A DNA stretch of 23,166 bases from Saccoglossus kowalevskii. Taxonomy: Eukaryota; Hemichordata; Enteropneusta; Harrimaniidae. This document shows, one piece after another, positions 2,818 through 23,166 of this stretch. Every line of letters begins with the position of its first letter. Within the stretch, counting starts at the first letter, position 1. The stretch covers positions 385,927 to 409,092 of the forward strand of contig NW_003135352.1 of assembly GCF_000003605.2 (NCBI RefSeq), given 5' to 3'. The translations under genes were made by a program, and so were the position numbers. The notes under the pieces were generated by a model that was given only the letters and a program-made list of their open reading frames with translations, had not been told where the DNA came from and searched no databases.

Positions 2818-2849
2818 ATTTTTAGTTCTGAGTTACCAGCTTTGAGCGA

Positions 2850-2875: not shown

Positions 2876-2916
2876 CCGTTACACATCATAGCAACGCGGA
2901 CAATAGAGATATCTTT

Positions 2917-2926: not shown

Positions 2927-2936
2927 TAGGTGGCGC
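2923..2936 (+). promoter_or_regulatory. CTCF-like site 2
   Basis: AAGGTAGGTGGCGC matches the ten core positions YAGRKGGCRS of the CTCF motif completely and also resembles the fly CTCF core AGGTGGCGC. It directly abuts, and slightly overlaps, the CArG box. Same orientation as site 1. Confidence 0.4.
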
Positions 2937-2939
2937 GAT

Positions 2940-4150: not shown

Positions 4151-4157
4151 AATATGC

Positions 4158-4224
4158 GTCACGTGACAACTTACTAGTATACAAATTAGGTATTAATTTA
4201 CTACTTCGATTTGAAACACGTGAC
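4158..4224. promoter_or_regulatory. Paired CACGTG E-boxes, one a perfect GTCACGTGAC
   Basis: GTCACGTGAC at 4158-4167 is a full palindrome and the optimal core for USF/MITF/TFE-type bHLH-zip factors. A second CACGTGAC lies at 4217-4224, 57 bp away. These are two of ten CACGTG hexamers counted in the upstream 14 kb. Confidence 0.35.
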
Positions 4225-4575
4225 TGCGTTAGTTCTGAAAATCCACGAGCAATAAATTGACGCGGGGCACCATATTGATGTTTGTAATAGATATATCCGC
4301 GTCCTACAGAATCGTTAGAATTGTGTCGTCGAGTTCGAGTCTGTGTTTACAGAATGCCGCTTTCCACGGAAATGTTAATTTACCGAAATCTTCAATATTT
4401 TTAAAATCAGAAACTGCAATCAACGGCAGGTTCGGTCTGCTTGGTCCGAAATTATCGTTGAGCATCAAGAGAAACCGGAACCGAGTTGCATTGAAATGTC
4501 GGCGGTAAAATCCGCCTGCCAAGAAAGTGGGTACGGGCGGGGGACTCGGCTGTATTTGCGAGCCGATCGGTGTAG

Positions 4576-4602
4576 CCATGGACGTCTCTAGTACGTCCAT
4601 GG
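4576..4602. repeat. Inverted repeat with 10-bp perfect arms
   Basis: CCATGGACGT at 4576-4585 and ACGTCCATGG at 4593-4602 flank a 7-base loop. It lies in a locally GC-rich patch (about 4500-4670). No bounded terminator or known RNA is recognisable. Confidence 0.55.
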
Positions 4603-4669
4603 TGTAACTAACTGTGATATCATCAAACACGGTGCACCCCGGGCCTTCCAACTTCGTTCACTCGATCCC

Positions 4670-5930
4670 GCTTTCTTAACAGGCATACAGTCTCTTTGAT
4701 TCGCTCATAAAAAAAGTAAAATATGGATAATAACAAAATTGCTGCAAGTAATGTAGAATGGAATTAGTCGAGTTTTCACATCATTGACAATATAAATACG
4801 GGTGGAGGGGGAGAACAGGATAGGGAGACAAGTCGTGGCTTGATAAGTATAAACAAACACTGATATGGTACAAAAGAAACGATAGATGTTTTTTTTTTTT
4901 TTTTTGTATTTTTCACTGTAATGCACACAAACGGTGAACCGCGCTCGGTTTTATGTAGACATTTCTCGCTTTTACGCTTTGGGTTGGTGTTTGCTTATCT
5001 GTAGAAAGCTTTGCATCGAAATTTTAAAATGCGTGTTGCATCTTGTACCGGATAGCGTCCTTCCATCGGGGAAAGTCTTTTGGTTATAATCGCAATTAAC
5101 GTAAATATCATTGTGTCCACCTTGTTTACATACAATAATAGTTCCGCTCTCGGGCTGTGTCCTAAGATCTCTTATATTGGTGACGTTTATAATAAGAGTT
5201 TACACACCTTGCATCCGGACTGGGCATAATTTCTTTTTATTATAACTATTGTTAATTTAAGGTTGTAGTGAATTTTATATCATTATAAAACAGCAATTAG
5301 TGACTAAGTCAACATTCAAAACCCCACCCTCTCTCTCTCTCTTCATGAATAAAGTCGAAAATAAAAGCTCAGGCTACGAATACGTTTTATCTTTGGCAAT
5401 TAGTTTCCTAGAAATTTCTCCTGCTACATTTTTGAAATCAGTTCACATAAAATCAAACATACGAGACTGTTCCCAGTCCATGACGATCGGAAAAAAAATG
5501 CTAGATGATGTCACCGCACCGGTACTTAATTTCTCTGTTTTAAGTATTTGATTATTGTCACTGAGTTGCAAATTCGTTCGTAATGTAGAGTATGATAACA
5601 TCTTTACAAAAACATAATTATTATTGGTGGGCGACTGCAAATCAAAACGATAGCGAATTACGTCATGAAATGTGGAGGCTCACCGGATTTTTTTTTCGAA
5701 AACGATTAGCATTGATGATTATTATAGGTAGAGATTATGTTCATTGTCATTTGCTGAATAAGTCAAAAGGTAATTTTCACGTATGTAATTTTTGTCACAT
5801 TTCCAAATTGTCATTCGATTTGGCGGCTTAAATTTGGATGTTATTTCCCATAATGCATTATACAATTCTCTCATTGGATGCGAAGCTGGATGATTCGGTT
5901 TAAATTCCATAAAAAAAGATGAATAACCCC
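4670..5930. other. Non-coding stretch
   Basis: AT-rich sequence with a T17 run near 4889-4905 and a short CT-repeat near 5327-5342. Open frames of 60-83 codons occur here on both strands but resemble no protein I know. Nothing else supported. Confidence 0.5.
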
Positions 5931-5932
5931 AA

Positions 5933-5953
5933 AAGTGTGATGAGATCTCACAT
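5933..5953. promoter_or_regulatory. Inverted T-box-like half-sites
   Basis: AAGTGTGA and TCACATT are arranged head to head around a 10-bp palindrome, TGAGATCTCA (5941-5950), resembling a degenerate Brachyury-type palindrome. A TGACGTAA bZIP half-site follows at 5963-5970. Weak, motif-only evidence. Confidence 0.2.
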
Positions 5954-6023
5954 TCTTCGGGATGACGTAACCCTGGTCTTGATGGTCACTCACCGGGCCT
6001 TCTCGGAGTCTCAAGATTTAGAA

Positions 6024-6031
6024 TGACGTCA
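6024..6031. promoter_or_regulatory. Palindromic CRE (TGACGTCA)
   Basis: Exact CREB/ATF full site. It sits 46 bp upstream of hairpin B and 54 bp downstream of a TGACGTAA half-site. A perfect 14-bp palindrome, GTATACTAGTATAC, lies just downstream. Confidence 0.35.
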
Positions 6032-6069
6032 TTGATGTATACTAGTATACCACATTCGGCGTTAGTACG

Positions 6070-6106
6070 ACCACAGTCCCTCTATAGACTATACAGAGAC
6101 TGTGGT
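6070..6106. repeat. Hairpin motif, copy B (near-perfect 37-bp palindrome)
   Basis: Two 18-base arms (6070-6087 and 6089-6106) around a single central base, with only two mismatched pairs. The outer left arm, ACCACAGTCCCTC, is shared with hairpin A at 206-218; the right flank CTGTGGTACGA is shared with the degenerate copy C at 770-780. This is the most symmetrical copy of the set. Confidence 0.65.
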
Positions 6107-6109
6107 ACG

Positions 6110-8900
6110 AACATGGAGGTAAAAGACAGAGCGTGGTTTTGTGATAATCGCGATAATTTGATAATTTTGTTATACATTCAAATATTCGCTTATATATTAG
6201 TAAATACAGAAAGCCTACTTATCAACAGATAACAAAAGGTGACATAACATAACAGTGACTGACAAGACATTGTTCACGGATGGCTTTTCCTTCTCTGCCC
6301 TCGAATCGATTTCGGTTTTCAAGGAAATCTTGAAATATTCTTATTCAAGAGATCATTATGAATATGGCATACAATCAGTACTGTGATATTAATTAAATGC
6401 CAAGAAATAGACGAGTTTTCGATCTCGTACCAGTGAGATATGTAGGTTGTCCGTACATCGCATCAGAGACGATGTATTGTACGCTGATTAGAGACATCGT
6501 TCGTTGTTAGTCGGAATAGGCGTTGCGCCTCAAATTGAGTGTGATCAGAAAAATAATATGTCGGTCTGTACGGGGTTCTGCAAACTTCAGAGCGTCAACA
6601 CAGACGTTAGTACCTTCCATGGTACGACAAGTGTTATATGCGGCGACGAGAGTAGATGCCTTCCCATCGCAAATACTATGCGTGGTTTCCGATGATTGTT
6701 TGGTTGGTGAAACCATAGACCTCTTTTTCTTTCTAAGGTCTATAGCGACACCAACTCGCCTAACAATTTTGGAAATTTTCGAAAATTAAACTAAAATATT
6801 TTCGTAAAATTGTACTCGGGTAGTTTCCAGAAGGCATAGATGTCGACATGTAGGCCCACATGTGAGACGGGGGAATTGGGGCACGGGCTATTTAGTCATC
6901 ATTAGAGCGTCCCAAATTTCTATTGTATTTGGTATACCGAGAAAACCGAAATCTGGTTCTTGAATACTATTAGTACTCAATATGTGCCAAGCGTGTTTGG
7001 TCTCGCCATAAAATGATACATTATTGGCTGGGGACAGATTCAATGCATATAGCACAAACCTTACAATGCGAAATTACACGAACAATACACACGTCACGCG
7101 TATTCCAAGAAAGTCTTCTTTGAAATTCCGTTCCCTTTCCACTTCCTGAATTATAGTTGTATTGAAGCATTTTCCTTTCGCTTCCCTCTTCCGATCCACC
7201 GCCCTTCTTTTGTTTGTTTGTTAACAGTGTTTTTTTTTCTGTCTTCCGATGTAACTAAAAACACCTTAGTTCCATGGTCTCCCTAAGAGATCATTTTAAA
7301 CCCCAAACAACCATTGTACAATCTCCCCACCCCACCCTGACATCATTTTTAGAGGTGGTCACGTAACTTGTCGACGTTGAGGGCAGTTGAATACTAATCA
7401 TCACCTGCACGACATTTCTTTACTGTGACATCCCGTTGTGACGTTTCTTCCCGAATTCTACTGTTTGTTTGGAACCGTCTTCGACAAGATATAACGCATA
7501 TGATAACAGACAGCCCCGAGAAGTGACGTAACAGTTCCCAATGAAAGTTACGCCGCTATGAGTATTTATAAGTCAGAAACAGAGAATAATATGATTTTTC
7601 ATCAACGGCAAAAATTAGATTCACTCAAAATCTCATATTTTTTTGCGAACATAATGTCAATTTATTCTTATCATGGAGGTCAGTACGCAATTTTGGACTG
7701 ACCAGCCTTTGATCAAGGTGGGTAATGTTTTCACCGCCCCATACACTGATACGACCCATCTTTTCGATTGAAATAAAGACACAGCGGTCATTACTCTGCA
7801 CGCACAGTACGTTGCATTTTCATGTGGCACAGGCCTGTGCACTAGTCCTGGCGCGGACTTTTCGGTCACGTGTTGTGAAGAAGGCGCATTTTCGACTTTG
7901 CGTATGTTTTGTATAACACCGATTAATGTTGATACAAGTAGATGAAATGGAACTAAAATTATATAAATATTATACAATCGTTTTCCGATTGAAGAGAAAA
8001 AATATGTCGTGCATGCTTGTTGCAGAAACCAGTTACTAGTATTAGCCGACGCACAGTGCCTTCTTGCTGTGGTGGAGAAAATTAAAATAAATATCATGCT
8101 TAAAACGGACGAATTGTAAGTGTGAATTAGATGAAAAAAGGGACTATCATGTCGTGTCTGTCGTACGAACTCGGTCGCCATGTTTTAAAACATGCGTGTA
8201 GTCGAAAAGTTCGCCTCCTGCAAAACGCGTGACCTAAATGTTCGAACTGAAAACTGAATGCCAGTCGAAATTCTAAGCCCCCTGCTAATGCTCATCCCGC
8301 GTCGAAATATTATAGAATTACCAGCCCCGGCATTAATCGTTTGGATGAACTGCAGTTGTATTTATTATTACTTTATATATTTAGAATATTATTTTTTGAA
8401 ATCTTAAATATATTTCTTTAAATACGCGTTTTGAAATTAATATATTCCGCCTCATTCACTTCGCTCTTCACTCGATTCCGGTCAGTTAACGAGTCTATAC
8501 TATAATTAGCATATCTGAATACTAATCAGTGCCACGTTGGTTAATCTAACCAATGGCAACTGTCACATAGCATACGTCATTACTTTGAAACCTCCGTGTC
8601 CGTATTCAACGTACTGGGATCACTGCCGCCAAGGATGTCGAGGCGATTAACATAATTAGTTAGATGATTACACGTGTATTTATGAATGTAAACAATTTAA
8701 AAGCATGTGTCGTTCTATTGTTTGCGCATGGAGCTTTTTTAACTCCATGGTTTACAAAATTGCTTCATTGAACACGTGTAAAACAAAGCCTTTTGTTGTG
8801 TACTGGCACGCAGTACGTACGTTCGATGTGCACAGATACTTGTCATATATATATAAATGTTGCACCTGTGACGCTTACGGATTGGAAAAAAAATAAGAAA
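6110..8900. other. Non-coding stretch including the window's longest open frame
   Basis: Contains a 174-codon minus-strand frame (7657-8181) and several shorter ones. None shows a recognisable domain, and composition does not change at their ends. Other items are a 16-bp palindrome, CATGTTTTAAAACATG (8179-8194), and CACGTG E-boxes at 7867, 8671 and 8773. I do not call a gene. Confidence 0.5.
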
Positions 8901-8906
8901 ACAAGA

Positions 8907-8946
8907 AATCGATTAATCATTGTTCTTATTGTTTAATCGATTAATC
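8907..8946. promoter_or_regulatory. Duplicated AATCGATTAATC homeodomain-type sites
   Basis: The 12-mer AATCGATTAATC occurs at 8907-8918 and again at 8935-8946. Each copy holds ATCGATTA (Onecut-like) and GATTAATC (a bicoid/Otx-class K50 homeodomain palindrome); the second also forms TAATCGATTA. Tandem duplication of a homeodomain-type element suggests a regulatory site, but no factor can be assigned from sequence. Confidence 0.3.
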
Positions 8947-9030
8947 TACCTATTGTTACGCATTGTATTTTTAATGTGGTTAGAAGATAAACTGAATATA
9001 CATGTAAATACAGTTAACAACTCTGCGTTT

Positions 9031-9117
9031 TAATATATAAATACATAAATATATATATATATTTATATATATATGATTTATAAATATATATATATATATT
9101 CATATATATATATGATA
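9031..9117. repeat. AT microsatellite
   Basis: Long TA-rich tract made of several (AT)n blocks broken by ATTTAT, GATTTATAAA and TCAT. Low-complexity DNA capable of cruciform or unwound structure. Confidence 0.85.
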
Positions 9118-9663
9118 TGTGCTTGTATCCCAGTATTAGTTTTTACCAGATGTGACCACACAGAATCGCTTGGCGACTCAAATAAAATGTGTTAATTATA
9201 AATGAGCTTCAAGTTACTAAACCCAAGTCCCACTGCGCCTATCGGTAATTCGCACAGGTTCAAGGTCATCTTTAAATGTTCACTTTGATTTCTACATGGA
9301 TCCGTAGTGTACCCAATAAATAACCCAACATGAGAAAGGTATCTTCGAGTCCGCATTTCAGTTAGTGCAAAGTAAGGAAGTCTGATTTTTTTAGGGGGGT
9401 TCCTCTGTAAACGAGTTGAGAATTTATTATATTACAAACAAATCTTAAGTTCAAATGATAGTTTCATTACCAACAGCCTGGGAAAGTTCATCAATATGAA
9501 TTATATTTTAACAGAAAACAAAAATTTCAATATTTAACATTTATCTAACATTTATTTTATATTTTTACAGTGTTTGTTTGTTATTTGTTTATAAAGAAAT
9601 GTATATTGGCCATAGATGATGTATTTTCCATTCATTATTTAATAATTTGTGTCAAATAAAATA

Positions 9664-9680
9664 TACTATACTATACTATT
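9664..9680. repeat. Short TACTA tandem repeat
   Basis: About three copies of a 5-bp TACTA-type unit inside AT-rich DNA. Minor simple repeat. Confidence 0.5.
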
Positions 9681-9750
9681 ACCACAAAATTACTGTAAAA
9701 TTATCGGCCCCATTTTCGAAAAGATGGCCACGGTAAATTCGTATATAATC

Positions 9751-9774
9751 GTTTAATCAACGGATTGATTAAAC
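9751..9774. promoter_or_regulatory. Perfect 9-bp inverted repeat with ATCAA/TTGAT cores
   Basis: GTTTAATCA at 9751-9759 and TGATTAAAC at 9766-9774 surround a 6-base centre. The arms hold TAATC and GATTA homeodomain cores, echoing the duplicated element at 8907-8946. An AAGATGGC (YY1-like) string lies 30 bp upstream at 9721. Confidence 0.35.
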
Positions 9775-9779
9775 TGGGG

Positions 9780-12020
9780 GTAAGCTCTTTACATTTCATG
9801 TTTTTTTTTTAGTTTATGCTGGTCTTTCTTGTCTTCAAACTTTTTGGTGCACGACTTCCGCAGTTTACCTTCGCAGTTTCCAATGCTATACGTCAAATTT
9901 TGTCATTTTTCTCAACCCGAAGCCTGCATTTTGTGTGGAAAATGATATTCATAGATAGTGAGTTTGTAACCTCAGAAAGTACCAGGATGTGTGACCTTTT
10001 AGGATCATGCATATGGCATATTTTCTGTCGCATTCAGTTTTGTGACATCATAAAAATACACGCGTTGTAATCACCAAAGTTACACAATGGAACTAGCTCC
10101 ATGGTTCCATTTCGTACTAGCTTTACAATTGTGTTTGATATTCCAGATTCTTTTATTGACTAAAACACTGATTACAATTTACGGTTTTCATGATGAACCT
10201 AGTTCACAACATGACCGTCGGACTTGAAATTATAAATAACTGATCACGTGGTTAACAAATCAACCCTTGACACCCTTGTTTAGCCGTCTGTAGACAAAAT
10301 GCCTATGATTCGCACTACAAGTCTGCGATGAAACTACAAACAGTAAGACATGCTAAATGTAGTAGTTACTATGGTTACTATGCACCTCAAGACGACTGAG
10401 GTTAGCGATGAGTTTAAACAATACCCAAGGTGCCGTGTCGTTGTGGATTCACTGACCGTCCACAAACACGGAGCCTCGTCTGGGTGACGGTAAACCGGCA
10501 TAAATGGGAAAAGGCACCGCTGTTGGGATGATATACAAGTCTTAGTTTCAATTGTATGAGATGATCCCCGCCAATGGGGGTATCAATCAGAATAACTCAT
10601 CGCATCAATGGAGTGTCTATAGTGAGAGACAATAGCTATTCAGCGTCAAAGGGGCTCTGAAAGACTGGAGAAAGGACCGGATCTATGAAGAAAGAAGTGG
10701 AGAGATAAGACGGGCGTGAGATAGGGAGAAATGATAACAAGTAATGAAAGAAACTGTTTCGCCTTCACCCCCCAAGCGGTCAGGCGTAAAAGTAATCCAG
10801 ATCGTAGAAAAACAAGGGCCAGATTACTCCACACAGATACAGTGGACAATTGTTGATGATGCACCCGCAGCGGAGAGTTAAACTAAAAGAAGTGGTGAAC
10901 ACAAAACGTTCTCACTCATGTCATTACGTCACCTTCGGGCTCAAACACGATAGCATATTTGTTGCATCGTGGTCGCACTCAGTACGTGCTTTGCGCAAAG
11001 ACGTATAGCGATTTGTACGAACTCATGCTTGTTTCAAAAGAAATGTACAAGAGAAAATACAACATACAATCGAACAAAACAAACTATCATGTCCCCTTTA
11101 ATTCAGAATTCCAATAACTTAGAAACGAGACGTGTGGTTATGTGTCCAATGTCTATCTAACCGTGAATTAAAATATAATAGAACATATTGATTAAAACAA
11201 TATATCTACCACGCTAACTATAAAAGATAGAACAAAATATTCGAAAAAATGTTTTTTTCTTAAAGTAAAAACAGTACAATACGCGTGCTGGCGCTTATCT
11301 TTATTGGGATTTTAACGACGCTCATCAAGCACTTTTCGCCATTATGAAAGTTCCGCACGCTTTGTAATTGCTACAACGAATTACCGAGGTAAATGAATTC
11401 ATTAAAATAATATTAAATGACGTTATAATATACTAATTTGTCAGTGAAAGAACTACTTCCAAACTGCCCTCCCAAATTAGACAGCACGCCAATTCATACT
11501 GATTTTTATATAGTAGACTGTGCCTTTCGTTCTTTGTTGAATATCAGTTTACTCATCGTTTTGGCACGTCTCTGAAATACGGGTGAATAAGAAAAGTGCT
11601 CGTCGTCATGTTTTGACTCGTTCATAAGGTCAGCGGTAGGTCACGTGATCTAACCTTACTTTTTGTGTTATGGTGGGGGAGTGAGAATTCCTGCAGGCCA
11701 GGATAGAATTAAAAAATGGAAAATCTACAAAACAGAAAAGGGAGCCCTGTATAGACGTTGTATTGTGTATATTTATCGCATTTAGAAATACCGTGTCCCC
11801 AAAATGAAATTCATGCAGCGTTGAGGCTGAAGGGACGACTGAATATCAGGAATAGTGGCCTAACAGGTTGTCCAGTAGACATCATGGTGAAGTATTGTCT
11901 ATGCTACAGTTGTTTATGATGTAATTAATTTCAGAACGACAGGAAGCAAAACTGAAAATAGAGAATAGTATGTTAATGGTTATCTTCGTATATTTCATGT
12001 GGTCGTGACCTCATTGAATC
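9780..12020. other. Non-coding stretch
   Basis: No convincing exon or RNA. Small items only: a direct repeat of GTTACTATG at 10365-10382, a CCCC-GCCAATG-GGGG mini-hairpin near 10566, and CACGTG E-boxes at 10245 and 11642. GC and CpG rise between about 10.4 and 10.95 kb. Confidence 0.5.
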
Positions 12021-12024
12021 ATAA

Positions 12025-12032
12025 TGACGTCA
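12025..12032. promoter_or_regulatory. Palindromic CRE (TGACGTCA)
   Basis: Exact CREB/ATF site embedded in ATAATGACGTCATAATTAG, so a homeodomain TAATTA core overlaps its right end. A CACGTG E-box follows at 12062. Together they form a compact candidate regulatory module about 2 kb upstream of exon 1. Confidence 0.35.
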
Positions 12033-12069
12033 TAATTAGTGAAGTAACCGTTTGGTCGCTACACGTGAC

Positions 12070-13240
12070 AAGAACGACAGTGACGAGGCCCCGGATTTTT
12101 GCTGGGGGAGAAAACAAAACAAAAAACGCGTTGCTGTCTTTGTTGGTATTTAGTCAGCCGTTATTTAAAAGAGCCGGAAATGAATGGTTCATTTGAACAC
12201 TCTATGTGGAAGAACAATGTACACAGTACAAAATTAAATTCACCCGATTATAGTTTTTATTATAGTTATAAGTTGTCAAGAAAGAGAATCTTTTTTTCTC
12301 TCTGCGCATTTTCCAGGACAACATCTCGCACCATTTGAAATGCTGATGCATATACCATGGCTGTTCCGTCGACGACCTCTCTCTGGCGATTTATTAGACT
12401 CCCGTGGATAACACATAGAGACTATTCGAAATGTAATATATTCTTTAAATACAAATATGTTTCGTAAAAGATCGCAATATTTCACGGTGGAGAAAGTGGG
12501 CTTGTGTGTTTCACCAATTACTACCAGGGGCGGCGCGGTCCCGGACAGTCGCCGTATATCCCCGGTTCAAGTTTTATGCTTGCATTTTTCAGTGTTTACT
12601 GCGATACAAAAACGTTTTAATTTGAAGTTGATGGTTCGAGTAGGCATCAATGCAAGCATCTACTTGTTGTTTTGGATTTAGATTTGTATTCATAACGTGC
12701 AATGTTGTGGTGTGTCTATTTCTCCACACACCTACACGACGTCCCAGGACGCCGGTAACGCTACGGCGTTAAAGCAGGGATGAAGCAATGGCAAATAATC
12801 TATTTGCGTCGGGCTTCCACTTTTTTAATTGACTGAGACGCCAATTATGGAGACCACATCAATGTGAAATAAAACATACCGGTGTTTCAAAGCATCGCCA
12901 CGGTTCTTTGTAAAAGTTGCTGTTATCGATATGTTCACAACAATACAACAGCCTCTCCATTTAGTATATGACAGACATTATGTTTTCATATCAACACTGT
13001 CAATTTCCTTTTAAAAAAAAGGAAACACAACAAGAGAGACAAAAACATTGTTGGACAAGTTTAATTAACACATACGGTTATCCAAAACCACACGGCGAAG
13101 TGCATGTTTGTTGGGCTTAGTATATGTAGAGAAACGTGCGTCAATGACACGCGCAAAAGTGATCGGGTAACTATGGGAACGGTTTTGAGAAATGGTTTTG
13201 GTGAAATTGACAAGTGATTTACGGTGAATAAAATATTCAA
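12070..13240. other. Non-coding stretch
   Basis: No gene supported. A short perfect inverted repeat, TTTCCTTTT and AAAAGGAAA (13004-13025), is the only notable structure. CpG density is high throughout. Confidence 0.5.
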
Positions 13241-13246
13241 TAGAGT

Positions 13247-13260
13247 TCGCCATCTAGCGT
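13247..13260 (-). promoter_or_regulatory. CTCF-like site on the minus strand
   Basis: Read on the minus strand this is ACGCTAGATGGCGA, with 11 of 14 positions of CCASYAGRKGGCRS matching and core YAGRKGGCR intact. It points toward the two plus-strand CTCF-like sites near 2.8-2.94 kb, the convergent arrangement associated with loop anchors in vertebrates. It is about 770 bp upstream of the PRDM3/16 start codon. Confidence 0.25.
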
Positions 13261-13944
13261 TCCGGACGATTCCCCAAGTCCATTCCAGGGCCAAGAAAGA
13301 GAGTGCTCAAAAGACAGCTCGCCGCTTTTTGATGAATGACTAACCGGAAAACACCTGTCGGCCTGTTCTAGATGCACTAAGCAAAAAGGAGTAAAACACG
13401 CACGCGCGTCGGTTCGTCCCTGTTGACTTAAGGGTTGGGATGAAAAAGGCTTGCAACATACACAATCCCCTTTAAAACTGTGCGATAATAAATTCTATTT
13501 TTATAGTACGTGCGCTATGCTTTTTTATCGATGAATTTACGGTGTTTTTATGACAGTGGCAAATATGTCGTAGTCGTGTCATCATCGACCACTTCAACAG
13601 AGGAATGATATACAGCGTATTATTTGTGGGTGTGTTTTTTTCTTCTTCAAACCAGTGCGTTTTGTTGAAACTCGGTAAACCAATCCCATATCGGATAGTT
13701 TTGGCTCGCATACTTCCGACGGCTTTTTATCCATGAAATCCGACACGATCGTGGGAAAGACGATCATACACTACGGTGTTATCAATAATTTTGTTGACAT
13801 CGTCATTTTGATGGTATTATTGTAGACAAATATCATAAATGCTTGAAACGTGACCTCCGGTTGGTCGCTAGCCATCTTCAAAAAAGAAAGCGACACTGTC
13901 ATCAGCTTATCTCCACCCCCGAATTTGATACACTTCACTTGCGC

Positions 13945-14013
13945 ATGCGTCAGGTAGCTTTTGGCCATGTTGACAAGACAAGTGAGTTGGATGTGAAGGG
14001 CACTCTGTGGTGA
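13945..14013 (+). other. Upstream ORF 1 (22 codons) in the 5' leader
   Basis: ATG at 13945 opens a 22-codon frame that ends with TGA at 14011-14013, two bases before the PRDM3/16 ATG. If the leader starts upstream of 13945, ribosomes translating this frame would stop almost on top of the main start codon. It does not encode a recognisable peptide. Whether it is in the mRNA depends on the unmapped transcription start. Confidence 0.35.
13967..13996 (+). other. Upstream ORF 2 (9 codons) in the 5' leader
   Basis: ATG at 13967 begins a 9-codon frame, MLTRQVSWM, ending at TGA 13994-13996 and so 19 bases before the main ATG. It is nested within uORF 1 in another frame. Its last codon is itself an ATG directly followed by the stop, a minimal start-stop element. 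Confidence 0.35.
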
Positions 14014-14015
14014 CG

Positions 14016-14052
14016 ATGCGGTCTAAAGGCAAAGCCCGAAAACTCGCCAAAA
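14016..14052 (+). CDS. PRDM3/16: PRDM3/PRDM16 (MECOM family) first coding exon, partial CDS
   Basis: Twelve codons, MRSKGKARKLAK, plus one base. From memory, human MECOM (MDS1-EVI1) starts MRSKGRARKLATN and PRDM16 starts MRSKARARKLAKS, so this is the conserved N-terminal basic motif of the long PR-domain isoform. The exon stops at A|GTAAGT: 37 coding bases and phase 1, the same exon 1 length and phase I recall for vertebrate PRDM16. The start has a good context (A at -3). PRDM3/16 are nuclear zinc-finger proteins with a PR (SET-like) domain linked to H3K9 methylation and two zinc-finger arrays; they act in neural, haematopoietic and other cell-fate decisions. In vertebrates the N-terminal stretch distinguishes the PR-containing from the short isoform. 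Everything downstream of residue 12 is outside the window. A chance match is very unlikely given sequence, donor and phase together. Confidence 0.9.
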
Positions 14053-14058
14053 GTAAGT
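14053..14058 (+). other. Splice donor of PRDM3/16 exon 1 (GTAAGT)
   Basis: AAAA|GTAAGT is a strong U1-complementary donor that splits the thirteenth codon after its first base. Family proteins have S (PRDM16) or N (MECOM) at this codon, both compatible with A in the first position. The matching acceptor is not in the window, so intron 1 exceeds 9.1 kb. Confidence 0.88.
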
Positions 14059-15540
14059 CTGAACTATCATACCCGTTGTATTTACAGCACAATTCCGGGT
14101 GATCCCATCACGCTACGCGCAGCGACCACCGGATTTCTGTTGGGTCGGCGATCTCACTTTTTTTTTTTACCCCGTGAGTGTTTACCGGTTTCGTTGGATA
14201 ATTCATCTTGTCTATAGTTGCACATTGAAATGAAGTCTGATCACAATAACTGGTGGTCGGTAAATATTTCAACGCTTACGTATTGCTTTCGTTGACTTCC
14301 TGCTCCAGGTTAGACCGAGCACCGTTACTGACTCACACCCGAGCATCACATCAACTTGCCCTCGTTTTTATCGTTTTTTAAATAAGGAAGTTGTTTGCAG
14401 TGTGGGACAACTTCTAAAGATTTCCATTTCGAGACATTACTTTGTTCTAGCGTTTTTTTAGAATACCGGTCGATCAGCTATATTACCATTTGAAAGGGGA
14501 GGGATGCCGTGTCCTCAAAAAGGGCGTTTTTTATACTAATTGATCGTTTTCATAGACGTGGGCTCCTTTCATATGGGGGGTTTCCTTGTTGAATTATTAC
14601 CGGTGTTTTTTAGTGTCCCGTGTGCGTTCGGTTTGAATCGCACCCCCCAATTGTCCTTTCATCTTGGCGGGCTGTCTCGCCTCACTCTCGAAATTAGATA
14701 CTTGCTAGTGAGTCGTCTTTTCAGAGTTTTCTTTCTCGGGTGTGTATTTTGATCGCTGGTTAAGCAAATCGAAAATGTGATATTTCAGTGAATGTTTCGC
14801 CCGAATGGAAAGGTCAGATGAGTGCGGTAAATCGAGGTGGACTTCAAAGAGGTCGCGTACCACCTTGTTTGAAGCTATCTAAACAACACCATTTAAACTG
14901 ACTACTTGGAGTTATACCCGTTGCAGTGTCTTTTGTGTCTGCGTTGGTATCTTTTTACCTAAAACTAAAGTCAACAAGTTTCCTGTTTATCGTTCCACAC
15001 CACGAAAATCGTCTAACTGAATAAATGTTGTTACTTGTGTTGTTTTTATTCCCATACATGTGATCACCGCAAAAGCTTGCATGGTGTTATGTTTTTTTTG
15101 AAGATCGCTGGATAGTATTGTCATCGCGTGCAGGGGTACGAAGTTCAGTGTGAGCGTAGTCTGCCACGACTCGACCAAAACACATTGTATCGGTAGTGGG
15201 CTTTTATCAACGTCATTTCGGGTACACCGCATCAATGATGATTGCTATTGTGTCGGGGTCCTCCCATACCACTATTTCTGTACATCATAGCTTGTACCCA
15301 TTCATTAACATTAAAAAGGAGTTTTTGTGAGGTCTCTGTTCTGCGGGGGAAACTTGTTCACGCATCGGTGGCGACTACACCACGGCAGTATGTATTGAGC
15401 AAGGCGAGTGCACTGACATTAAGGGCTTTTGAATGGCTCGCCATCCGTTGCTACCAGCGCAGTGAAACACTAGACATTGCCCAAGATGAATTTCACCCAA
15501 CTTTGTCTGAATGCAAAGAGATCGATGACTGTCCATCAGT
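14059..15540 (+). other. Proximal intron 1, CpG-rich part
   Basis: About 1.5 kb directly after exon 1 keeps the high CpG density of the upstream DNA (roughly 50 per kb by my count). A 107-codon frame at 15242-15565 lies here without any recognisable domain, and I do not call it. No repeats of note. The stretch behaves as part of an unmethylated promoter domain. Confidence 0.55.
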
Positions 15541-15590
15541 GTTAACAGATATACACAGTGGCTAACTGGACAAACACAGTATAATTGTTT

Positions 15591-15616
15591 GTGTGTGTGT
15601 GTGTGGGGGGGGGGGG
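15591..15616. repeat. (GT)n tract running into a G12 run
   Basis: Seven GT units followed by twelve consecutive G residues. GT repeats can form Z-DNA and long G runs can form quadruplexes. The tract lies where CpG density collapses. Confidence 0.85.
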
Positions 15617-15775
15617 TACTGCATGGCGTAAATGCTGTCTGGATCAAGGATTCTGCTCAGTTGAGTTTATAAATTGATAGATGAGTCTCCAATTTATCTT
15701 CCCTCTAAGTTCACTTTTTATTAAAAAAAACAAACAGCTATTCCAAATCAAGTTACTTTCTTCCTAGATCTCCAC

Positions 15776-15822
15776 AGCAACTGCTAACTGTCCTAGCAAC
15801 TGCTAACTGTCCTAGCAACTGC
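15776..15822. repeat. 19-bp tandem repeat with AGCAAC motifs
   Basis: The unit AGCAACTGCTAACTGTCCT is repeated exactly at 15776-15794 and 15795-15813, with a partial third copy to 15822. Each copy begins with AGCAAC, a half-site of the RFX X-box, so three half-sites are spaced by 19 bp. Confidence 0.8.
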
Positions 15823-15935
15823 AGCATCATGAGAGGTATCACCACCTAGCACTGTCATAGAAATCCAAGACAGTCATCAGCCATCATTATCTTACTCAAG
15901 ACATCCTGCATCCTTCAAGGGAAGGAAGATGATAG

Positions 15936-15959
15936 GTTGCTATTAGCAACTAGGTTGCT
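15936..15959. promoter_or_regulatory. RFX X-box (GTTGCT-ATT-AGCAAC) plus extra half-site
   Basis: GTTGCTATTAGCAAC (15936-15950) fits the X-box rule RYYNYY-N(1-3)-RRNRAC with a 3-base spacer and near-perfect dyad symmetry. Another GTTGCT follows at 15954-15959. With the tandem repeat at 15776 there are six RGYAAC-type half-sites in about 185 bp. RFX factors bind such sites and control ciliary and neuronal genes. Confidence 0.45.
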
Positions 15960-15969
15960 ATCTGTCTAG

Positions 15970-17078
15970 TATCCTGGGGAATGTCCTTATCGGGTGCAAA
16001 CATTGTATCTAGTAAAAGTGACCTAATCTCTGGTAGGTTTGAGCCCCCCAAGCATGGCATTGGCGGTTTGACCAAAAGTTATCTCTCCGCACATTCCATT
16101 GTCTATGATTGTTGTACTAATGCTGTCTATTACTGAAGAAAAGCAACGATTTACTTCTTGCCCTCGGTAGATACTTCCATGACCATCTGGTCCTTAAACA
16201 AATTCTCCAAACAGCCACTTGTCCTGGGGCATCACAGTGTATATAATGACAGTGCTAACTTAAATCTACCACCAAAGTAGACTTGGTTTTAAAACCCAAC
16301 AATCTTTTTTATTTTGTGTCTAAAAGCTGCCCTTACAGGTGTATGCTGCATATCTATAATGAAATTCACCCCCAAAAAATATTAGAATAACTAAAAAATA
16401 AAACTTCTGCAGCTGCTTCGGAGAGGTTAATTTTAATTTTATACCAGGTGTATTTCAAATAATAGTTTTAAGAACTTGCTAGGAATACCTACATATGTCA
16501 ATAATAAAAACAAATATACCCATTGTATTATGTTTTTATTCTAAGTTTAAATATTTAATTATCGCTTACGACAGTCACATATGTTCAAAAATTAGCTAAC
16601 CATAATTAATAATTTGCAGATTAATTCACACATATTAACCATTTTGAAGTACAATATGGTTATATTGTCATTATAACTTACCATGAAAAGGCTGCAATTA
16701 ATATTGTGTATGTCGGTTTTATTTGTACACAGCACATTGAACATTTTTTTTTCAAATCATCAAGGCAAAATATTTCACCGTTTTGTAATAAAAAAAAATC
16801 TGCAGTACATTTTCATTTTTTCAAAAATATTTTTTTTGTATATAAACATAATTTTATTATTCTTTATACCTTATTATTTTTTATAATGTTATTTTGAATG
16901 TTTCTTTTATTTTTTCATATATTTACTACAGTATTTTAGTCTGTCATGTCAGCCAATCAAATTTCAGCTAACTCAAATAATATAAAAAGTTCTGAAAGTC
17001 GGAAACAAAATCAAAAAAGGCCTGAAACTAAATGCTAATTGGTATATACACTGCAACTAGTCTGTTGTAATATGTAGT
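15970..17078 (+). other. Intron 1, CpG-poor AT-rich stretch
   Basis: No exon, RNA or large repeat seen. A TCAGCCAATCAA CCAAT box (NF-Y type) lies near 16949-16960. From 16.3 to 17.0 kb the DNA is strongly AT-rich with many A and T homopolymers. Confidence 0.5.
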
Positions 17079-17082
17079 TTAT

Positions 17083-17314
17083 CCTCTTCACCACCAAACT
17101 TTCTCCCCCAAATTTTTCTATACTTTCTTATATTCTATAATATTTCTAGAAATGAACCTTAATTTTGGAGCCAACAAACAAAATTTGAATCAATTTTCGG
17201 TTTTTAAGCACAAAAAAATGCTATCTTTGTTCCAATCCTCTGAAAGAAAGTGCAGACGATAAACAGGACTTTTTTATAATTGGTGATGAAAAGAGGGAAC
17301 TGGTGGTGAAGAGG
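17083..17314. mobile_element. Candidate non-autonomous DNA transposon (MITE), ~232 bp
   Basis: Perfect 14-bp terminal inverted repeats, CCTCTTCACCACCA at 17083-17096 and TGGTGGTGAAGAGG at 17301-17314, are flanked on both sides by TTAT (17079-17082 and 17315-17318), a plausible 4-bp target-site duplication. The interior is AT-rich and non-coding. Next to the right end is a diverged subterminal copy of the terminal motif (GGTGATGAAAAGAGGG, about 17282-17297). The superfamily is not identifiable: the termini are not those I know for hAT or piggyBac. The CpG-poor intronic setting would tolerate an old insertion. Confidence 0.5.
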
Positions 17315-17318
17315 TTAT

Positions 17319-18590
17319 AATCCATTTGTGTTCAATGTTGTATACAAAACTTATAAAATAAACTGTACTCGTCGGCTAACAACAGCAATCTCAAAGTATT
17401 ACTATATTGTAATATAATTTCTAGTAAATACCATAAAAATAATTGGGAAGTGATTCGACACGTTTAAAGCTACGCCCCAAGGATATATATAGAAAAAAAA
17501 GTTCTGTGATTTTGAAAATATGTGACATACAAATAAAAATATTCAAATCAAAAAATGTCATCTCTGTTATGTCATCGAAGTTTCGGATAGAGATCAATTG
17601 ACTTTAATTAGAAAGGTAATTTTGGGGGTGGGGGGTGTCAGGAGCAGTTGACAAACAGTTATCATGGAATCTGTTGTCACTGAAAAGTCTTATCATTAAT
17701 ATTCATGTATTTATAATTTCATTATTTTCATGAACAATTAAAAATCACAAAATAAAAAAGAATCACTGTGTTAGAGTTCTCATTTATGGCTATTGAGGGC
17801 TCGACGAACCAGATAAGTGTCATGCAGGTGGAATTTGTTTTTTGAGAAACATCATTATTAGTTTTGATTTTGATTAGTCTGATTTGAGAATGCAAAATTA
17901 ATTCACATGAAAAAACACCAAATTAAATGATTCTACAGTATTCCATTGATTACTAGTATCTAGTAATTTCTGTTAAGTTATGCAAAAATGAAAGAGAACA
18001 AAAAGTATTGCCAATAAATTTGCTTTTTCCTCCAGTTTAGCAGAATCAGTGTATATAAATAAGTGAGAAATAATAATTGTAAAATTATTATATTGTAGAA
18101 TATTTTATTTTAGTTTGCCTTTTATTTTTCATCTGAAATTCACTTTTATTTGGTGGTTATGAACTTGATTTTAAACCAGTTAAAGCAAAAATTGTAAAAA
18201 TAGATTTCAAGTTAAACCTTCTAGTCAAAGCTCTGCTGAGATAAAAATAAATAAGATTTATACAAGGTATTTTTCAAATCTGAATTTAGTGATTTTTAGA
18301 AAATGGTTAATCCTTGTTTATCGTAAACATAAAAAAAAAAAAAAGATCTCATAACCACTAGTTGCTAATTGCCAGTCATGATTTATTCGGTGAAAACGAT
18401 ATTAATTTATGATGATTTAAAGGTGTATGCTGGGGAGTATGTCTCCCCAGGCAATTGAACAATTCTAATAGCCGTGAAAAAAATTTCTGTAATTAAATAT
18501 ATGTTGATAGTGAACAAAATTACTTTGGATTAATTCATTAAAATGTTCTATGATGATACACAAGAAAACAATTCAGCCCCCTGCTTTTAA
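17319..18590 (+). other. Intron 1, AT-rich stretch
   Basis: Low-complexity AT-rich intron with scattered homopolymers (A14 near 18331). No exon, RNA or tandem repeat recognised. A GGGGGTGGGGGGTG patch lies near 17625. Confidence 0.5.
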
Positions 18591-18599
18591 AAAGTCTTT

Positions 18600-19250
18600 G
18601 TTGGATGCGAAGAAAAGTTGGAAAATTGTGTAATACAAAAGCAAATTGCTTTCAGAGTCAAAAGATTTGCATCAATCACTCTGTTGGAGGCTGAAAGACA
18701 CTTGGCTTGAAAGAGACCATCTCTCGGCGGTAATTCCTAGACAATGGAATCGTGGAAGAGCTATGGAAAAGCATGCCTGAGTCGTTGTGAAGTTGTATTG
18801 TCCCCTAACGGCCCAGTGAGACCCGCTGGAGAACGCTTAAGTGAAAAGTACCATCATGTTAATCAGATGCTCTCTCCGGAGATTCCCTTTCTTTATTCTT
18901 CATTAAACCCGATTTAAAACGTACGAGAGTGTGAATGAAATCAACGCAGCGCTAAGCATGTTCATCGTGTTGTAAAATGTCAGGTGACACTAAAAAAAAA
19001 GTAGCTATGCTTGTGAAAAACGACATGTGGGGGGATTTCATCTAATTACAGTGGACAGTAACCACTTGTCTGCCGTGGCATGCATAAACGTCTGACACCT
19101 TCGTGTTCATCATAAGAGGATTTCACATATTTCAACAATCCAAGGTGAGAAATAAATGCGAGGGTAGAATAAGACAGTTTTCGTTATCATCATTCACGGT
19201 TAGTTAATGCAAGCTGCAGCAGGACATTCCTGCCCTGGTACCACAATAAG
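18600..19250. promoter_or_regulatory. Candidate intronic enhancer 1 (CpG-retaining island)
   Basis: About 650 bp with a CpG density near 30 per kb, against about 9 per kb in flanking intron, and much more balanced composition. Motifs include the octamer ATTTGCAT (18665-18672), a TGTCAGGTGACA dyad around an E-box near 18979, and CTAATTAC near 19043. Two frames stay open across part of it, probably as a by-product of the less AT-rich sequence. A constrained, hypomethylated regulatory element is the simplest reading. Confidence 0.4.
18744..18917 (+). CDS. Possible small ORF (57 codons), unassigned
   Basis: ATG at 18744 sits in a strong start context (A at -3, G at +4), and the frame runs 57 codons to TAA at 18915-18917. 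It begins MESWKSYGKACLSRCEVVLS and shows no signal peptide, membrane segment or domain I know. An in-frame TAG two codons upstream fixes this ATG as the earliest start. It lies in the CpG-retaining island inside intron 1. It could be a chance frame in a conserved non-coding element; I favour that. Confidence 0.15.
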   Translation: MESWKSYGKACLSRCEVVLSPNGPVRPAGERLSEKYHHVNQMLSPEIPFLYSSLNPI

Positions 19251-19370
19251 TGCGTTATGTTAGTAATGTACATAAACATTTCAGAATTATCTTTTTTGTA
19301 ACGCCCCATTTAAATTAAAAAAAAACGCACAACAAAACAGCTTATCTTTTGGCTTTGACTTTGCTTCATC

Positions 19371-19384
19371 ATTTGCATATTAAT
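19371..19384 (+). promoter_or_regulatory. POU octamer with adjoining TAAT (ATTTGCATATTAAT)
   Basis: A perfect octamer, ATTTGCAT, runs directly into ATTAAT, resembling composite POU dimer or POU-homeodomain sites. It is the second exact octamer in this part of the intron (the other is at 18665). Confidence 0.35.
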
Positions 19385-19593
19385 GGTAATGAAGGTGTTG
19401 AATTTGAAAACATTAAGTGGCACCCAACTGGGCATTACACTTGGAATTAACTTTTAATGTGCTAGTAATATCAAGATTGCTTTTGTTGTTGTAATAAATG
19501 GTTGCCAAATTGATGTTAGGTTACATGCTCACACTATAGCGAGGTCTTTTGTTGGTTTATCGCATTCAAGATCTGTGAAAGCATTTTATTATG

Positions 19594-19715
19594 CAGTCAG
19601 TGAAATAGACGATCAGTTTGATGGCACAGGTGACGTCGATGTCAGTCAATAAAATAGATGATCAGTTTGATGATGCCGATGACCATGATGTCAGTCAATG
19701 AAATAGACGACATAA
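19594..19715. repeat. 49-bp tandem repeat, about 2.5 copies
   Basis: Segments containing GTCAATGAAATAGACGA-like cores recur at 49-bp spacing (cores starting at 19596, 19645 and 19694) with several substitutions. Copies one and two also share GATCAGTTTGATG. A TGACGTCG CRE-like string lies between copies. Old minisatellite. Confidence 0.6.
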
Positions 19716-20006
19716 CTGTAAAGACTGAGGGATGACATAAAATATAGGGAGGATGGGCAGCTGTTTAAACAGCGACAAAACAAACTTAGGGATGGGATTG
19801 TGAATCATCCACTTGTCTGGGTTATTGAATGAATGCATTGTTTGAGTATTGGATTAATGGACCCACCCCCTCCTGGCTGTCTTTTGTTACCAGTGTGTGT
19901 CAACCTTCAAAACAGATGAGTAGAATTGATAGACAGTTCAGTGTTAATTACATAAAAAAAAAAAAAAGACAATTACGATGATAATCGTGTGTGCTCATTC
20001 TAATGT

Positions 20007-20020
20007 GTTGCTGTGGTAAC
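20007..20020. promoter_or_regulatory. RFX X-box (GTTGCT-GT-GGTAAC)
   Basis: GTTGCTGTGGTAAC fits the X-box consensus with a 2-base spacer at every defined position and is close to canonical GTTGCCATGGTAAC sites. It is the second strict X-box of intron 1. Confidence 0.5.
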
Positions 20021-20279
20021 AGAGGACACCCAAAGCCCTGGAACGTCTTTAGTATACCGACACACATAATGCTTTCTCAGTCTGAAAAGTGAACAAAAAA
20101 AAAATGCCTTAAACCCTTTTCCAGCCCAAAGTAAGATTTTACTGTAAATGATTAAATTATGCCTATGTCATAGCAATGATTTAATAATACTCGGTTGATC
20201 TCACAAGGTGTAGCTATGTAGCCATGTACAAGAACCACAGGGACATGTTATGCATCGCTCATTTCTCAGACAACATTCT

Positions 20280-20870
20280 TCTTGTGTCTTCTTGAAGCGG
20301 CATAATTTTCCCGCTCAATTTTTGATGCATTATTTTGCAAAATTTTTAGGGTTTTTCAATAATTTCTTTCTTAATATTTGAGTAAATGAACATATTTTTT
20401 CATCAGCTACAGGTCTACATCAAAAGTGACAAAATTTGATTTTAATACTAAAAGCTGCTAAAGGCTTCACAAAAATGACTGAGAGGATGTTTTTAGAACA
20501 TGTGTAAAAAGAAAGACCTTTATTTCTATTTAAAAGCCACTTTTCTGATGCTTTTGTCTGTGTCTCCGTTGCCGAGGCAATGGTTGAATTCTGATGCGGA
20601 GTTAAACTATGTGGACAAGTGCTGAATGATTTGGCAGCATTAAAACGTGAATATACAGGAAAGTGAAAGAGAGAGTCGTGTAGGATAGAACAAGTGGCAA
20701 ATGACTCCAAAGTGATAGTGGTAAAGTGGCCATCTCATGTCTTGTAGGAAGACTTTACATAATCAAAGTCTTTGCCTTTTAAGGGTAAGTGAGTCAGTCG
20801 CGACTTATCAACGAAGGTGACTGTTAATAGATCTTAAACGCTCTGAGAATGATGAAGAGACACATGCATT
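20280..20870. promoter_or_regulatory. Candidate intronic enhancer 2 (CpG-retaining)
   Basis: Composition is more balanced and CpG denser (roughly 22 per kb) than flanking intron. Contains the X-box-like element at 20568-20581 and the 10-bp palindrome AGTCGCGACT (20796-20805). A 96-codon minus-strand frame across part of it shows no domain. Confidence 0.35.
20568..20581. promoter_or_regulatory. RFX X-box-like palindrome (GTTGCC-GA-GGCAAT)
   Basis: Matches the ideal RFX palindrome GTTGCC-NN-GGCAAC except for the final base (T for C). Lies inside candidate enhancer 2 and about 560 bp from the X-box at 20007. Confidence 0.45.
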
Positions 20871-21031
20871 ATTTGATGGCTTTCCGCAAGATATACTGAT
20901 AATGCATTAAAATTGGTTGCCCATGGTTGTTATAAATTATATTATAACCCACTTTTCCATTTAAACCATTTAATCACATAAAGGGAATTTCTCAATCATT
21001 GAAATTGAAGTTACTCAAAAGGTTAATCCTC

Positions 21032-21075
21032 ATTGGCTGATCTATAGGTGTAAACTAGCCAATCAGTGAACACCT
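21032..21075. promoter_or_regulatory. Inverted CCAAT boxes with inverted AGGTGT half-sites
   Basis: ATTGGCTGA (21032-21040) and AGCCAATCAG (21057-21066) are oppositely oriented, full-consensus NF-Y CCAAT boxes 27 bp apart. Interleaved are AGGTGTAA (21046-21053) and ACACCT (21070-21075), an inverted pair of T-box-like half-sites. Interleaved dyads like this suggest a composite element. Confidence 0.35.
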
Positions 21076-21419
21076 TAGTGTGGTTTTCCGGTGAAATATA
21101 TAATACATATGTTTGAAACAGATGGAAAATCAATACAAATGGTATCAGTTATTACAGTGTTAAACACGGGAAAAGACACAAAAATAATGTATGGTACATT
21201 TATGCGTTTATTTACGTGAAAAGTATACGTAAAACCAGCTTGAAAAGTAGATAATAATTTGTCAGATTTTAAATAAAAAATATTTAAAAAAAAACACACA
21301 TCAATTTGTCACAATCCATCACTCAGTATTACATGTGTACTATTTTTCAATGGTAAATATTGGAATTTTACTTAACAAAAAAATTGTGTAAATATGAATA
21401 ATGTCTGTTAAATTTGAGT

Positions 21420-22130
21420 GTGTATTGAAATGCGGTTCTCGTGAAAAACCACATTCATGATACTAATTATCCCTCACGCAGTGCCATCTGATGAAATATA
21501 CATCCATATGTCCACCGCCATTTATCAGGCGTATCCACTTTGCCTTCTGACTTCCTCAGACCGTATATCCTCGCTCCCCATCCTTTTCAGCTCATGTCTA
21601 TCCACCCGATTCATCTCTGCCACTTAACGTAACTTTACTACTGATAGTTGGTGCACCTGGCCATCGCCACGCAAGAGCAGCTGTCTCTGTTTTTCCTGTG
21701 CATCATCATAGCAAACATTTTTTTTTTATGCTTAGGTCTTTTCGAATTGTATCTCGTCATAGCGTCACTATAGAAGGTGTATTGACAAAACATGTCTGCC
21801 GTCAATAAGCGACAGCACTAAGTCACACGCATCAGATTAAAAAAAAATTGAAATTATTTTTTTGTTGTTCGAGAGCTATCACCAAGGGTATTAGCAGAGT
21901 AATATGAGCGGACAGATGTTTGTAGTGTTTGGTCTCTTTTTGTCCCTCACGACAGCACCATGATGAAAAGATGGTCAGGGTAGCGAGCACAAAGCCATCT
22001 TTGTTAGACAATAGATGCAAGCAGATGTCTTGTACCAGTCCGACAATAAACCCAGAGATTAAATGTGTAATCCATGTTTACTTATCTATCCGCTGGCATC
22101 TCGTTTATCCGTTGTCCTTATTTCTTCGTA
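21420..22130. promoter_or_regulatory. Candidate intronic enhancer 3 (CpG-retaining)
   Basis: About 700 bp with roughly 36 CpG per kb, the densest patch in the distal intron. Contains ACTAATTATCC (homeodomain), CACCTG and CAGCTG E-boxes near 21654 and 21679, and an inverted Sox-type pair at 21996-22017. No exon recognised; short frames here look incidental. Confidence 0.4.
21996..22017. promoter_or_regulatory. Inverted Sox-type pair (CTTTGTT / ACAATAG)
   Basis: CTTTGTT and ACAATAG face each other across two bases and are extended by CAT at the left and ATG at the right, giving a near-palindrome of 22 bp. Head-to-head Sox sites with short spacing are the arrangement used by SoxE dimers. Located in candidate enhancer 3. 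Confidence 0.35.
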
Positions 22131-22265
22131 AAATTTCCATCTTTTTTGTGTCAGTCATAATCTGCCCCCTGGTGACCCTTGTCCTCTTTTAGTGTACATG
22201 TTGTGAACACTCTGTGTGTATTTTCACACCAAATCAGAATTCTATTCTAATCTATTCTAATTTTC

Positions 22266-22335
22266 CTATTCTATTCTATTCTATTCTATTCTATTCTATT
22301 CTATTCTATTCTATTCTATTCTATTCTATTCTATT
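22266..22335. repeat. (CTATT)14 pentanucleotide microsatellite, ATTCT class
   Basis: Fourteen uninterrupted CTATT units, flanked by impure TCTAT-rich sequence from 22241 and to about 22343. CTATT is a cyclic form of ATTCT, the repeat expanded in human ATXN10 and known to unwind easily. Copy number is likely polymorphic. Confidence 0.95.
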
Positions 22336-22343
22336 TCATTCTA

Positions 22344-22749
22344 CTAACAGTTACAATTCACGCTGTAGTCTTACTGAGACAGGGCCATCTCAAGTAACAG
22401 ATTGACAGTTGGCAAACAAACAACAAATAAAACTGACATCTTCATTGATGACAAAAGCAGAAATTATGGTTGTATTTTGACCCTAAACGACCTCCAAAAT
22501 TCACTGGTAATGAATAATAATGCGTGTTTGTAAATAGAGATATCCCTGGGTCATCAGAGACAATGATTAACTATTACCGGGGGTAACGGTGTTTTTTTCA
22601 TGTGGTAATTGTAGGGTGTTGATGTGCTATACAATCTGTGTCTACTACTATCGGGGCTTAGTGGATGCTACCACTATAATAAAACTTGTATTATGCCGTA
22701 CGCGCTCTGAATACATATATTTTAGATTGGTTGAAAATTAGTAGTGCTT
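22344..22749 (+). other. Intron 1 stretch between the two satellites
   Basis: No gene, RNA or large repeat. An ATTGGTTG string (CCAAT type on the minus strand) lies near 22727, shortly before the minisatellite. Nothing else seen. Confidence 0.5.
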
Positions 22750-22770
22750 TTGTCAGCTGTGTGAATTATG

Positions 22771-23166
22771 ATTGGCTACTGCTGCTGTGTGAGGCATTGT
22801 GATTGGTTAATGCTGCTGTGTGAGACATTGTGTTTGGTTACTGCTGCTGTGTGAGACATTGTGATTGGTTACTGCTGCTATGTGAGACATTGTGATTGGT
22901 TACTGCTGCTGTGTGAGACATTGTGATTGGTTACTGCTGCTATGTGAGACATTGTGATTGATTACTGCTGCTGTGTGAGACATTGTGATTGGTTACTGCT
23001 GCTGTGTGAGACATTGTGATTGGTTACTGCTGCTGTGTGAGACATTGTGATTGGTTACTGCTGCTGTGTGAGACACTGATTGGTTACTGCTGCTGTGTGA
23101 GACATTGTGATTAGTTACTACTACAGTGTGAGACATTGTGATTTGTTAGTGCTGCAGTGTGAGACA
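22771..23166. repeat. 31-bp minisatellite, 12 full units plus a partial, open at the window end
   Basis: Units start at 22771, 22802, 22833, 22864, 22895, 22926, 22957, 22988, 23019, 23050, 23079, 23110 and 23141; the tenth is 29 bp because of a 2-bp loss, and the thirteenth is cut by the window edge. A diverged partial unit precedes them (about 22751-22770). The typical unit starts ATTGGTTACTGCTGCTG and ends GAGACATTGTG. Nine of thirteen units have ATTGG, giving the NF-Y consensus AACCAATCAC on the minus strand for most. Outer units are more diverged than central ones, as expected from unequal exchange. Confidence 0.95.

Follow-up and report, generated by a model that had tools for sequence, protein, structure and literature searches.

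MECOM and PRDM16 each have a long and a short form, and the two forms are reported to differ in action (PMC7564095, PMC7761934). Human MDS1 contributes 125 codons ahead of EVI1 exon 2 (PMC7564095). In PMC4009873, the human MDS1-EVI1 N terminus is printed as MRSKGRARKL, one human isoform starts ILDEFYNVKF, and the start of short PRDM16 is placed at an internal ATG in exon 9 rather than in intron 2. Among invertebrates, hamlet of Drosophila and egl-43 of Caenorhabditis elegans are described as orthologues of PRDM3/16 that come in both a long and a short isoform (PMC12227202, PMC7117773).

The window analyzed here is a stretch of 23,166 nucleotides (C2733:385927-409092) from a 572-Mb assembly of 4,830 contigs, the genome that was searched. 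We are highly confident that the long isoform (PR-plus, MDS1-EVI1-type) of a PRDM3/16 gene has its first coding exon in a short segment of this window; the animal is presumably an invertebrate, and the gene appears to be single copy among the 150 of 593 candidate places scored. The splicing of the exon and the docking of its peptide are predicted from the DNA. The gene family and its layout are already known, and what this locus adds is an apparently single-copy example in which the layout is kept and a large CpG-rich block lies at the start.

The first coding exon

An ATG at position 14016 on the + strand opens 12 codons that read MRSKGKARKLAK in the letters of the window. The coding part of exon 1 (14016..14052, +) comprises 37 bases, namely these 12 codons and one further base, A at 14052, that begins codon 13; the count covers the coding part and leaves out the 5′ untranslated start. 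Directly 3′ of it lies the splice donor GTAAGT (14053..14058, +), in phase 1. An in-frame stop upstream of the ATG (13983..13985, +) limits the frame on its 5′ side, and without splicing the frame closes at a stop at 14100-14102.

The first-pass annotation had likened these 12 residues to the N termini of vertebrate MECOM and PRDM16, and the comparison bears this out. Against the MECOM/PRDM16 N-terminal pattern, M R S K G/A R A R K L A T/K, the peptide matches at 11 of 12 positions. The best 12-mer in the six frames of the rest of the window scores 7, and in a control of 100 random first-order Markov sequences scored against the same pattern the best score was 5 in 28, 6 in 65, and 7 in the remaining 7. 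The peptide shares MRSKG-ARKL with MECOM and ends in KLAK, as the PRDM16 N terminus presumably does. A peptide of the MRSKxxARKLA type thus sits in a first coding exon of its own at the head of the long isoform. A Xenopus MDS primer printed in PMC3561350 translates to MRCKGRAR.

Other searches for the exon returned little. A degenerate exon-1 pattern had 0 matches in viral contigs, a literature search returned no match to the exact peptide or to c.37+1 together with PRDM16, and the accessible part of PMC2082429 does not mention exon 1. An ATG frame that resembles the MECOM/PRDM16 N terminus by mere chance might be suspected from the shortness of the peptide, just 12 residues, and from a phmmer search with the 22-residue unspliced stretch (P0001), which found no family member among solved structures (chains of at least 20 residues) and one unrelated match (E 0.85). 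With a score of 11 of 12 here and none above 7 in the 100 controls, and with the right gene downstream on the same strand and in a fitting phase, such a coincidence has a very slight probability, and it is the downstream gene that rules it out. The tiny coding piece is very probably the true start of a relative of human MECOM and PRDM16.

Organization of the downstream gene

The right-hand rest of the contig (126 kb) was added to the window, giving a 149-kb stretch in which the window numbering is continued. The first-pass annotation had pointed to a search for the PR domain right of the window; this search, by tblastn with pieces of human PRDM16 and MECOM (PRDM pieces only), returned PR-domain and PRDM3/16-type zinc-finger exons, all on the + strand and in the order of the protein. 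The first half of the PR domain is matched at 39,009-39,266 with the PRDM16 query (+, E 3e-18) and at 39,090-39,269 with the MECOM query (+, E 1e-21), and the second half at 104,897-105,043 (+, E 1e-7), with a further match at 105,442-105,516 (+, E 2e-4). The first zinc finger lies at 106,152-106,256 (+), the fingers of array 1 at 106,763-107,194 (+, 83% identical, E 5e-84), and the last three zinc fingers at 108,605-108,862 (+, 91%, E 8e-55). The gene thus has the PRDM3/16 arrangement, in which a PR domain precedes two zinc-finger arrays, one N-terminal and one C-terminal.

Splice sites were picked by eye and the exons then joined. Exon 2, encoding the first half of the PR domain, spans 38986-39266 (its start is C2733:424912), exon 3 spans 104906-105040, exon 4 spans 105445-105547, and exon 5 spans 106153-106284; exon 6 runs from 106701, and its frame reaches a stop codon at 109,238, which is not a mapped 3′ end (all +). 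The acceptors of exons 2-6 are AG, the donors of exons 1-5 are GT, and the junction phases from exon 1 to exon 6 are 1, 0, 0, 1, and 1. After joining, a single open frame spans exons 1-6, and its passage through exon 6 rules out a broken gene. The junction between exons 1 and 2 falls after codon 12 in phase 1, so that the donor singled out in the earlier annotation meets an acceptor of the same phase 24,933 bases on; this splice position presumably corresponds to the vertebrate exon-1/exon-2 boundary.

The small exon also stands, as had been proposed, ahead of a very long intron: intron 1 extends ~24.9 kb to the phase-1 acceptor of exon 2, its 5′ part (14053..23166, +) filling the rest of the window. 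Beyond it, an assembly gap of 2,363 bases (23167-25529) intervenes before exon 2 begins at 38986, and exon 1 is joined to exon 2 solely by scaffolding over this gap. Intron 2, with 65,639 bases including assembly gaps of 11,898 bases (51662-63559) and 346 bases, is longer than intron 1, and introns 3-5 measure 404, 605, and 416 bases.

A profile search with PF21549 independently matches exon 3, and gave no match to exon 2 at E 0.001. A MECOM C-terminal query found nothing convincing on the 149-kb stretch (best E 0.13, minus strand), and a 16,667-base assembly gap lies 3′ of exon 6. Within the window, Rfam at gathering thresholds and ARAGORN returned nothing, and 10 of the 13 open reading frames of at least 80 aa had no Pfam match.

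The window ends on both sides at assembly gaps, of ~8.1 kb of N upstream and 2,363 N downstream. A tandem array with a 31-base unit (13 copies, 92% matches) occupies 22758-23166 and runs into the downstream gap; smaller tandem repeats lie at 9033-9118 (AT), 15776-15822 (19-base unit), 19594-19710 (49-base unit), and 22239-22343 (ATTCT).

Relation to MECOM and PRDM16

The exon 2/exon 3 junction follows codon 106 in phase 0 (YAWE/IVDEFG, between E106 and I107) and in place and phase alike is the human MDS1-to-EVI1 junction. The 65.6-kb intron 2 thus corresponds to the MDS1-EVI1 interval and, because MDS1 is joined to EVI1 exon 2, EVI1 exon 1 falls within that interval. In terms of shared features, the gene resembles MECOM in that the MDS1 part ends in WE and continues with I-DEF, in the long intron at this junction, and in the presence of PFDLS and PLDLS in exon 6, which we take to be CtBP-type motifs. 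The PR domain of PRDM16 presumably carries an insertion that is absent here, as it is in MECOM. The gene differs from MECOM in that intron 2 measures 65.6 kb, whereas 150-300 kb separate MDS1 from EVI1 according to PMC7564095; in that exon 6 carries five array-1 fingers and all three array-2 fingers, whereas human EVI1 is described as having 16 exons (PMC3561350); and in that a second copy was not found here among the candidates scored.

In alignments with the human proteins, array 1 is identical to MECOM and to PRDM16 at 119 of 142 positions (84% each), and the two human proteins agree with each other at 137/142. Array 2 gives 79/86 to MECOM and 78/86 to PRDM16 (83/86 for the human pair), and the PR domain 65/125 and 62/125, respectively (73/126 for the human pair). 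The alignments suggest that human MECOM and PRDM16 lie at about the same distance from this gene.

A search of the genome with array 1, in which 150 of 593 candidates were scored, returned array 1 itself at 100% and 13 other matches at E ≤ 1e-20 with 34-46% identity; no second PRDM3/16 copy was found among them. Array 1 is closer to human PRDM3/16 (84%) than to any other scored place in its own genome (at most 46%; the same 150 of 593 candidates). PF21549 gives 14 PR-domain matches on nine contigs, indicating several PRDM genes in this genome. A lone copy that lies outside the MECOM/PRDM16 pair is as expected for divergence before the vertebrate duplication. The first-pass annotation had held that the PR-isoform first exon and its long first intron predate the vertebrate PRDM3/PRDM16 split; this would be the natural reading if the host is a non-vertebrate, given one copy among the 150 of 593 candidates scored and a gene outside the pair, and provided that the vertebrate exon-1/exon-2 boundary lies at the corresponding place.

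Array 1 of the gene comprises six fingers, and array 2 three. The second finger of human array 1 has no counterpart in array 1 here (106,153-107,194), and none was seen in intron 5, where the missing finger was looked for. With six fingers in array 1, the gene differs from human MECOM and PRDM16, which have seven; the finger counts that PMC4009873 gives for human EVI1 are seven for array 1 and three for array 2. We read the six-finger array as either a finger loss here or a gain in vertebrates, with membership in PRDM3/16 kept, the rest of the array being 84% identical.

The N-terminal peptide and NuRD

The exon 1 peptide has R2, K4, A7, R8, and K9 in common with the histone H3 tail, 5 of 12 positions. 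These five identities could suggest that the peptide is a histone H3 fragment. Seven positions differ, the PRDM pattern is matched at 11 of 12, and the PRDM3/16 N terminus is itself described as H3-like (PMC7761934). PRDM3/16 exons come after the peptide in phase, and with the frame and these downstream exons ruling out an H3 fragment, its probability is negligible.

According to two sources, the N termini of PRDM3 and PRDM16 bind RBBP4 of NuRD, their first 12 residues resemble histone H3, and the motif depends on the lysine at its third position (PMC11602157, PMC7761934). R2 and K4 of the exon 1 peptide correspond to the first (R) and third (K) positions of that motif (PMC11602157). Counted from R2, the last place of the printed motif, RxKxxxxxK (PMC11602157), is L both here and in human MRSKGRARKL; we take the lysine of that last place, given as the ninth position, to be K9, which is present in the exon 1 peptide. 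FOG1, SALL, and BCL11A likewise dock on RBBP4 through a short basic N-terminal motif, RRKQxxP, but the PRDM3/16 motif is a variant without the proline (PMC11602157).

By analogy with vertebrate PRDM3 and PRDM16, exon 1 most likely adds a NuRD hook to the long isoform. One review assigns activation to MDS1/EVI1 and repression to EVI1 (PMC7564095), and the reported activator role is a poor fit with a NuRD hook that simply represses. Two further reports count against this role: anchor-cell invasion in the worm is described as proceeding without need of the PR domain (PMC7117773), and the short PRDM16 form is placed at an ATG within exon 9 (PMC4009873).

CpG content around exon 1

Within the window, the CpG observed/expected ratio is 1.21 over bases 1-15,000 and 0.56 thereafter. 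The best change point lies at 15,457 (interval 15,171-15,546; log-likelihood gain 44), 1.4 kb 3′ of exon 1, and TpG+CpA climbs from 1.12 to 1.32 across it. A CpG-rich block (1..15457, ratio ~1.2), defined by the change point and by the profile over 149 kb, thus lies around and upstream of exon 1, and because the assembly gap of ~8.1 kb of N before base 1 hides its 5′ limit, its length of 15.4 kb is a minimum.

Ratios of 0.96-1.50 are found in the ten windows of 1.5 kb that cover the bases up to 15,000. To the right of the block, 89 windows of 1.5 kb were laid out, 71 of which have readable bases; 61 of the 71 fall below 0.8, 10 reach at least 0.8, and two reach at least 0.95, those starting at 66,001 (0.96) and 133,501 (1.17). 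The first of these (66,001-67,500) lies in intron 2 and would be a weak pointer to a second promoter there. Taken together, the 133.8 kb after the block, which include 31.3 kb of N, have a ratio of 0.59. For comparison, 22 other loci were used, chosen for SET/PR matches and not at random, one of which (L031) is exon 3 of the PRDM3/16 gene; whole-locus ratios are below 0.8 in 13, above 1.0 in seven on four contigs, and in between in two. CpG-rich stretches therefore also occur near other genes of this class.

The block is perhaps an unmethylated promoter domain, with CpG content serving as the proxy. Vertebrate methylation valleys are described as unmethylated regions no shorter than 5 kb in which developmental genes are enriched (PMC8941758), and by the same CpG proxy the block may be a non-vertebrate counterpart of such a valley. 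It could instead be DNA of the unmethylated kind that is usual in a mosaic-methylated invertebrate genome, or a piece of assembly with an odd composition, as the seven of 22 SET/PR loci above 1.0 would allow; the scarcity of comparable windows further along the contig (two at 0.95 or above, against 0.96-1.50 within the block) and a switch just 1.4 kb after exon 1 argue against this, and we regard it as a real but lesser possibility. The first-pass annotation had seen in the apparent gene desert the control region of a developmental regulator; the CpG profile lends support to that view and falls short of proving it.

The position of exon 1 also bears on its use. A real ancestral exon could have fallen out of use, with transcription only from an internal, EVI1-type promoter, and short isoforms are indeed known in fly and worm (PMC12227202, PMC7117773). 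Decay would be the expected fate of an exon out of use, but frame, donor, and phase are all intact and the exon lies inside the CpG-rich block, so we consider disuse very improbable and retain the reading of exon 1 as the working start of the long isoform.

Implications for the two-isoform arrangement

In the arrangement that we favor, transcription would start within the CpG-rich stretch, and exon 1 would be spliced from 14052 across ~25 kb to exon 2, with the first half of the PR domain, then across ~66 kb to exon 3, which corresponds to EVI1 exon 2, with the zinc-finger exons after it. The N-terminal 12 residues would mimic the H3 tail and probably dock the protein on RBBP4 of NuRD, and promoter choice would decide whether the zinc-finger protein bears the PR domain together with the NuRD hook. 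The elements that we infer are splicing in vivo, RBBP4 binding, the second promoter, the lack of methylation, and a non-vertebrate host. More tentatively, and with more doubt than confidence, the CpG block of at least 15.4 kb as an invertebrate counterpart of a methylation valley, the NuRD-docking micro-exon, and the giant intron 2 might together represent an ancestral MDS1-EVI1 two-promoter switch older than the vertebrate duplication, in which an upstream promoter would give the hook and the PR domain and an internal promoter neither.

The split of the PR domain has a consequence for annotation. Exon 3 alone codes for 45 PR-domain residues, exon 2 lies 66 kb upstream, and gene models without the isolated exons 1 and 2 would make an intact PR domain look degenerate. 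A PRDM16-like protein of the bivalve Mulinia lateralis is described as having a 49-residue PR domain without the conserved residues (PMC10451705); by analogy, this short domain may reflect a gene model that lacks exon 2.

If a single ancestral gene already had the peptide exon, the long intron, the split PR domain, and the giant intron at the MDS1-to-EVI1 junction, the two-isoform switch may be of old standing among animals, and a single-copy species could then serve for its study.
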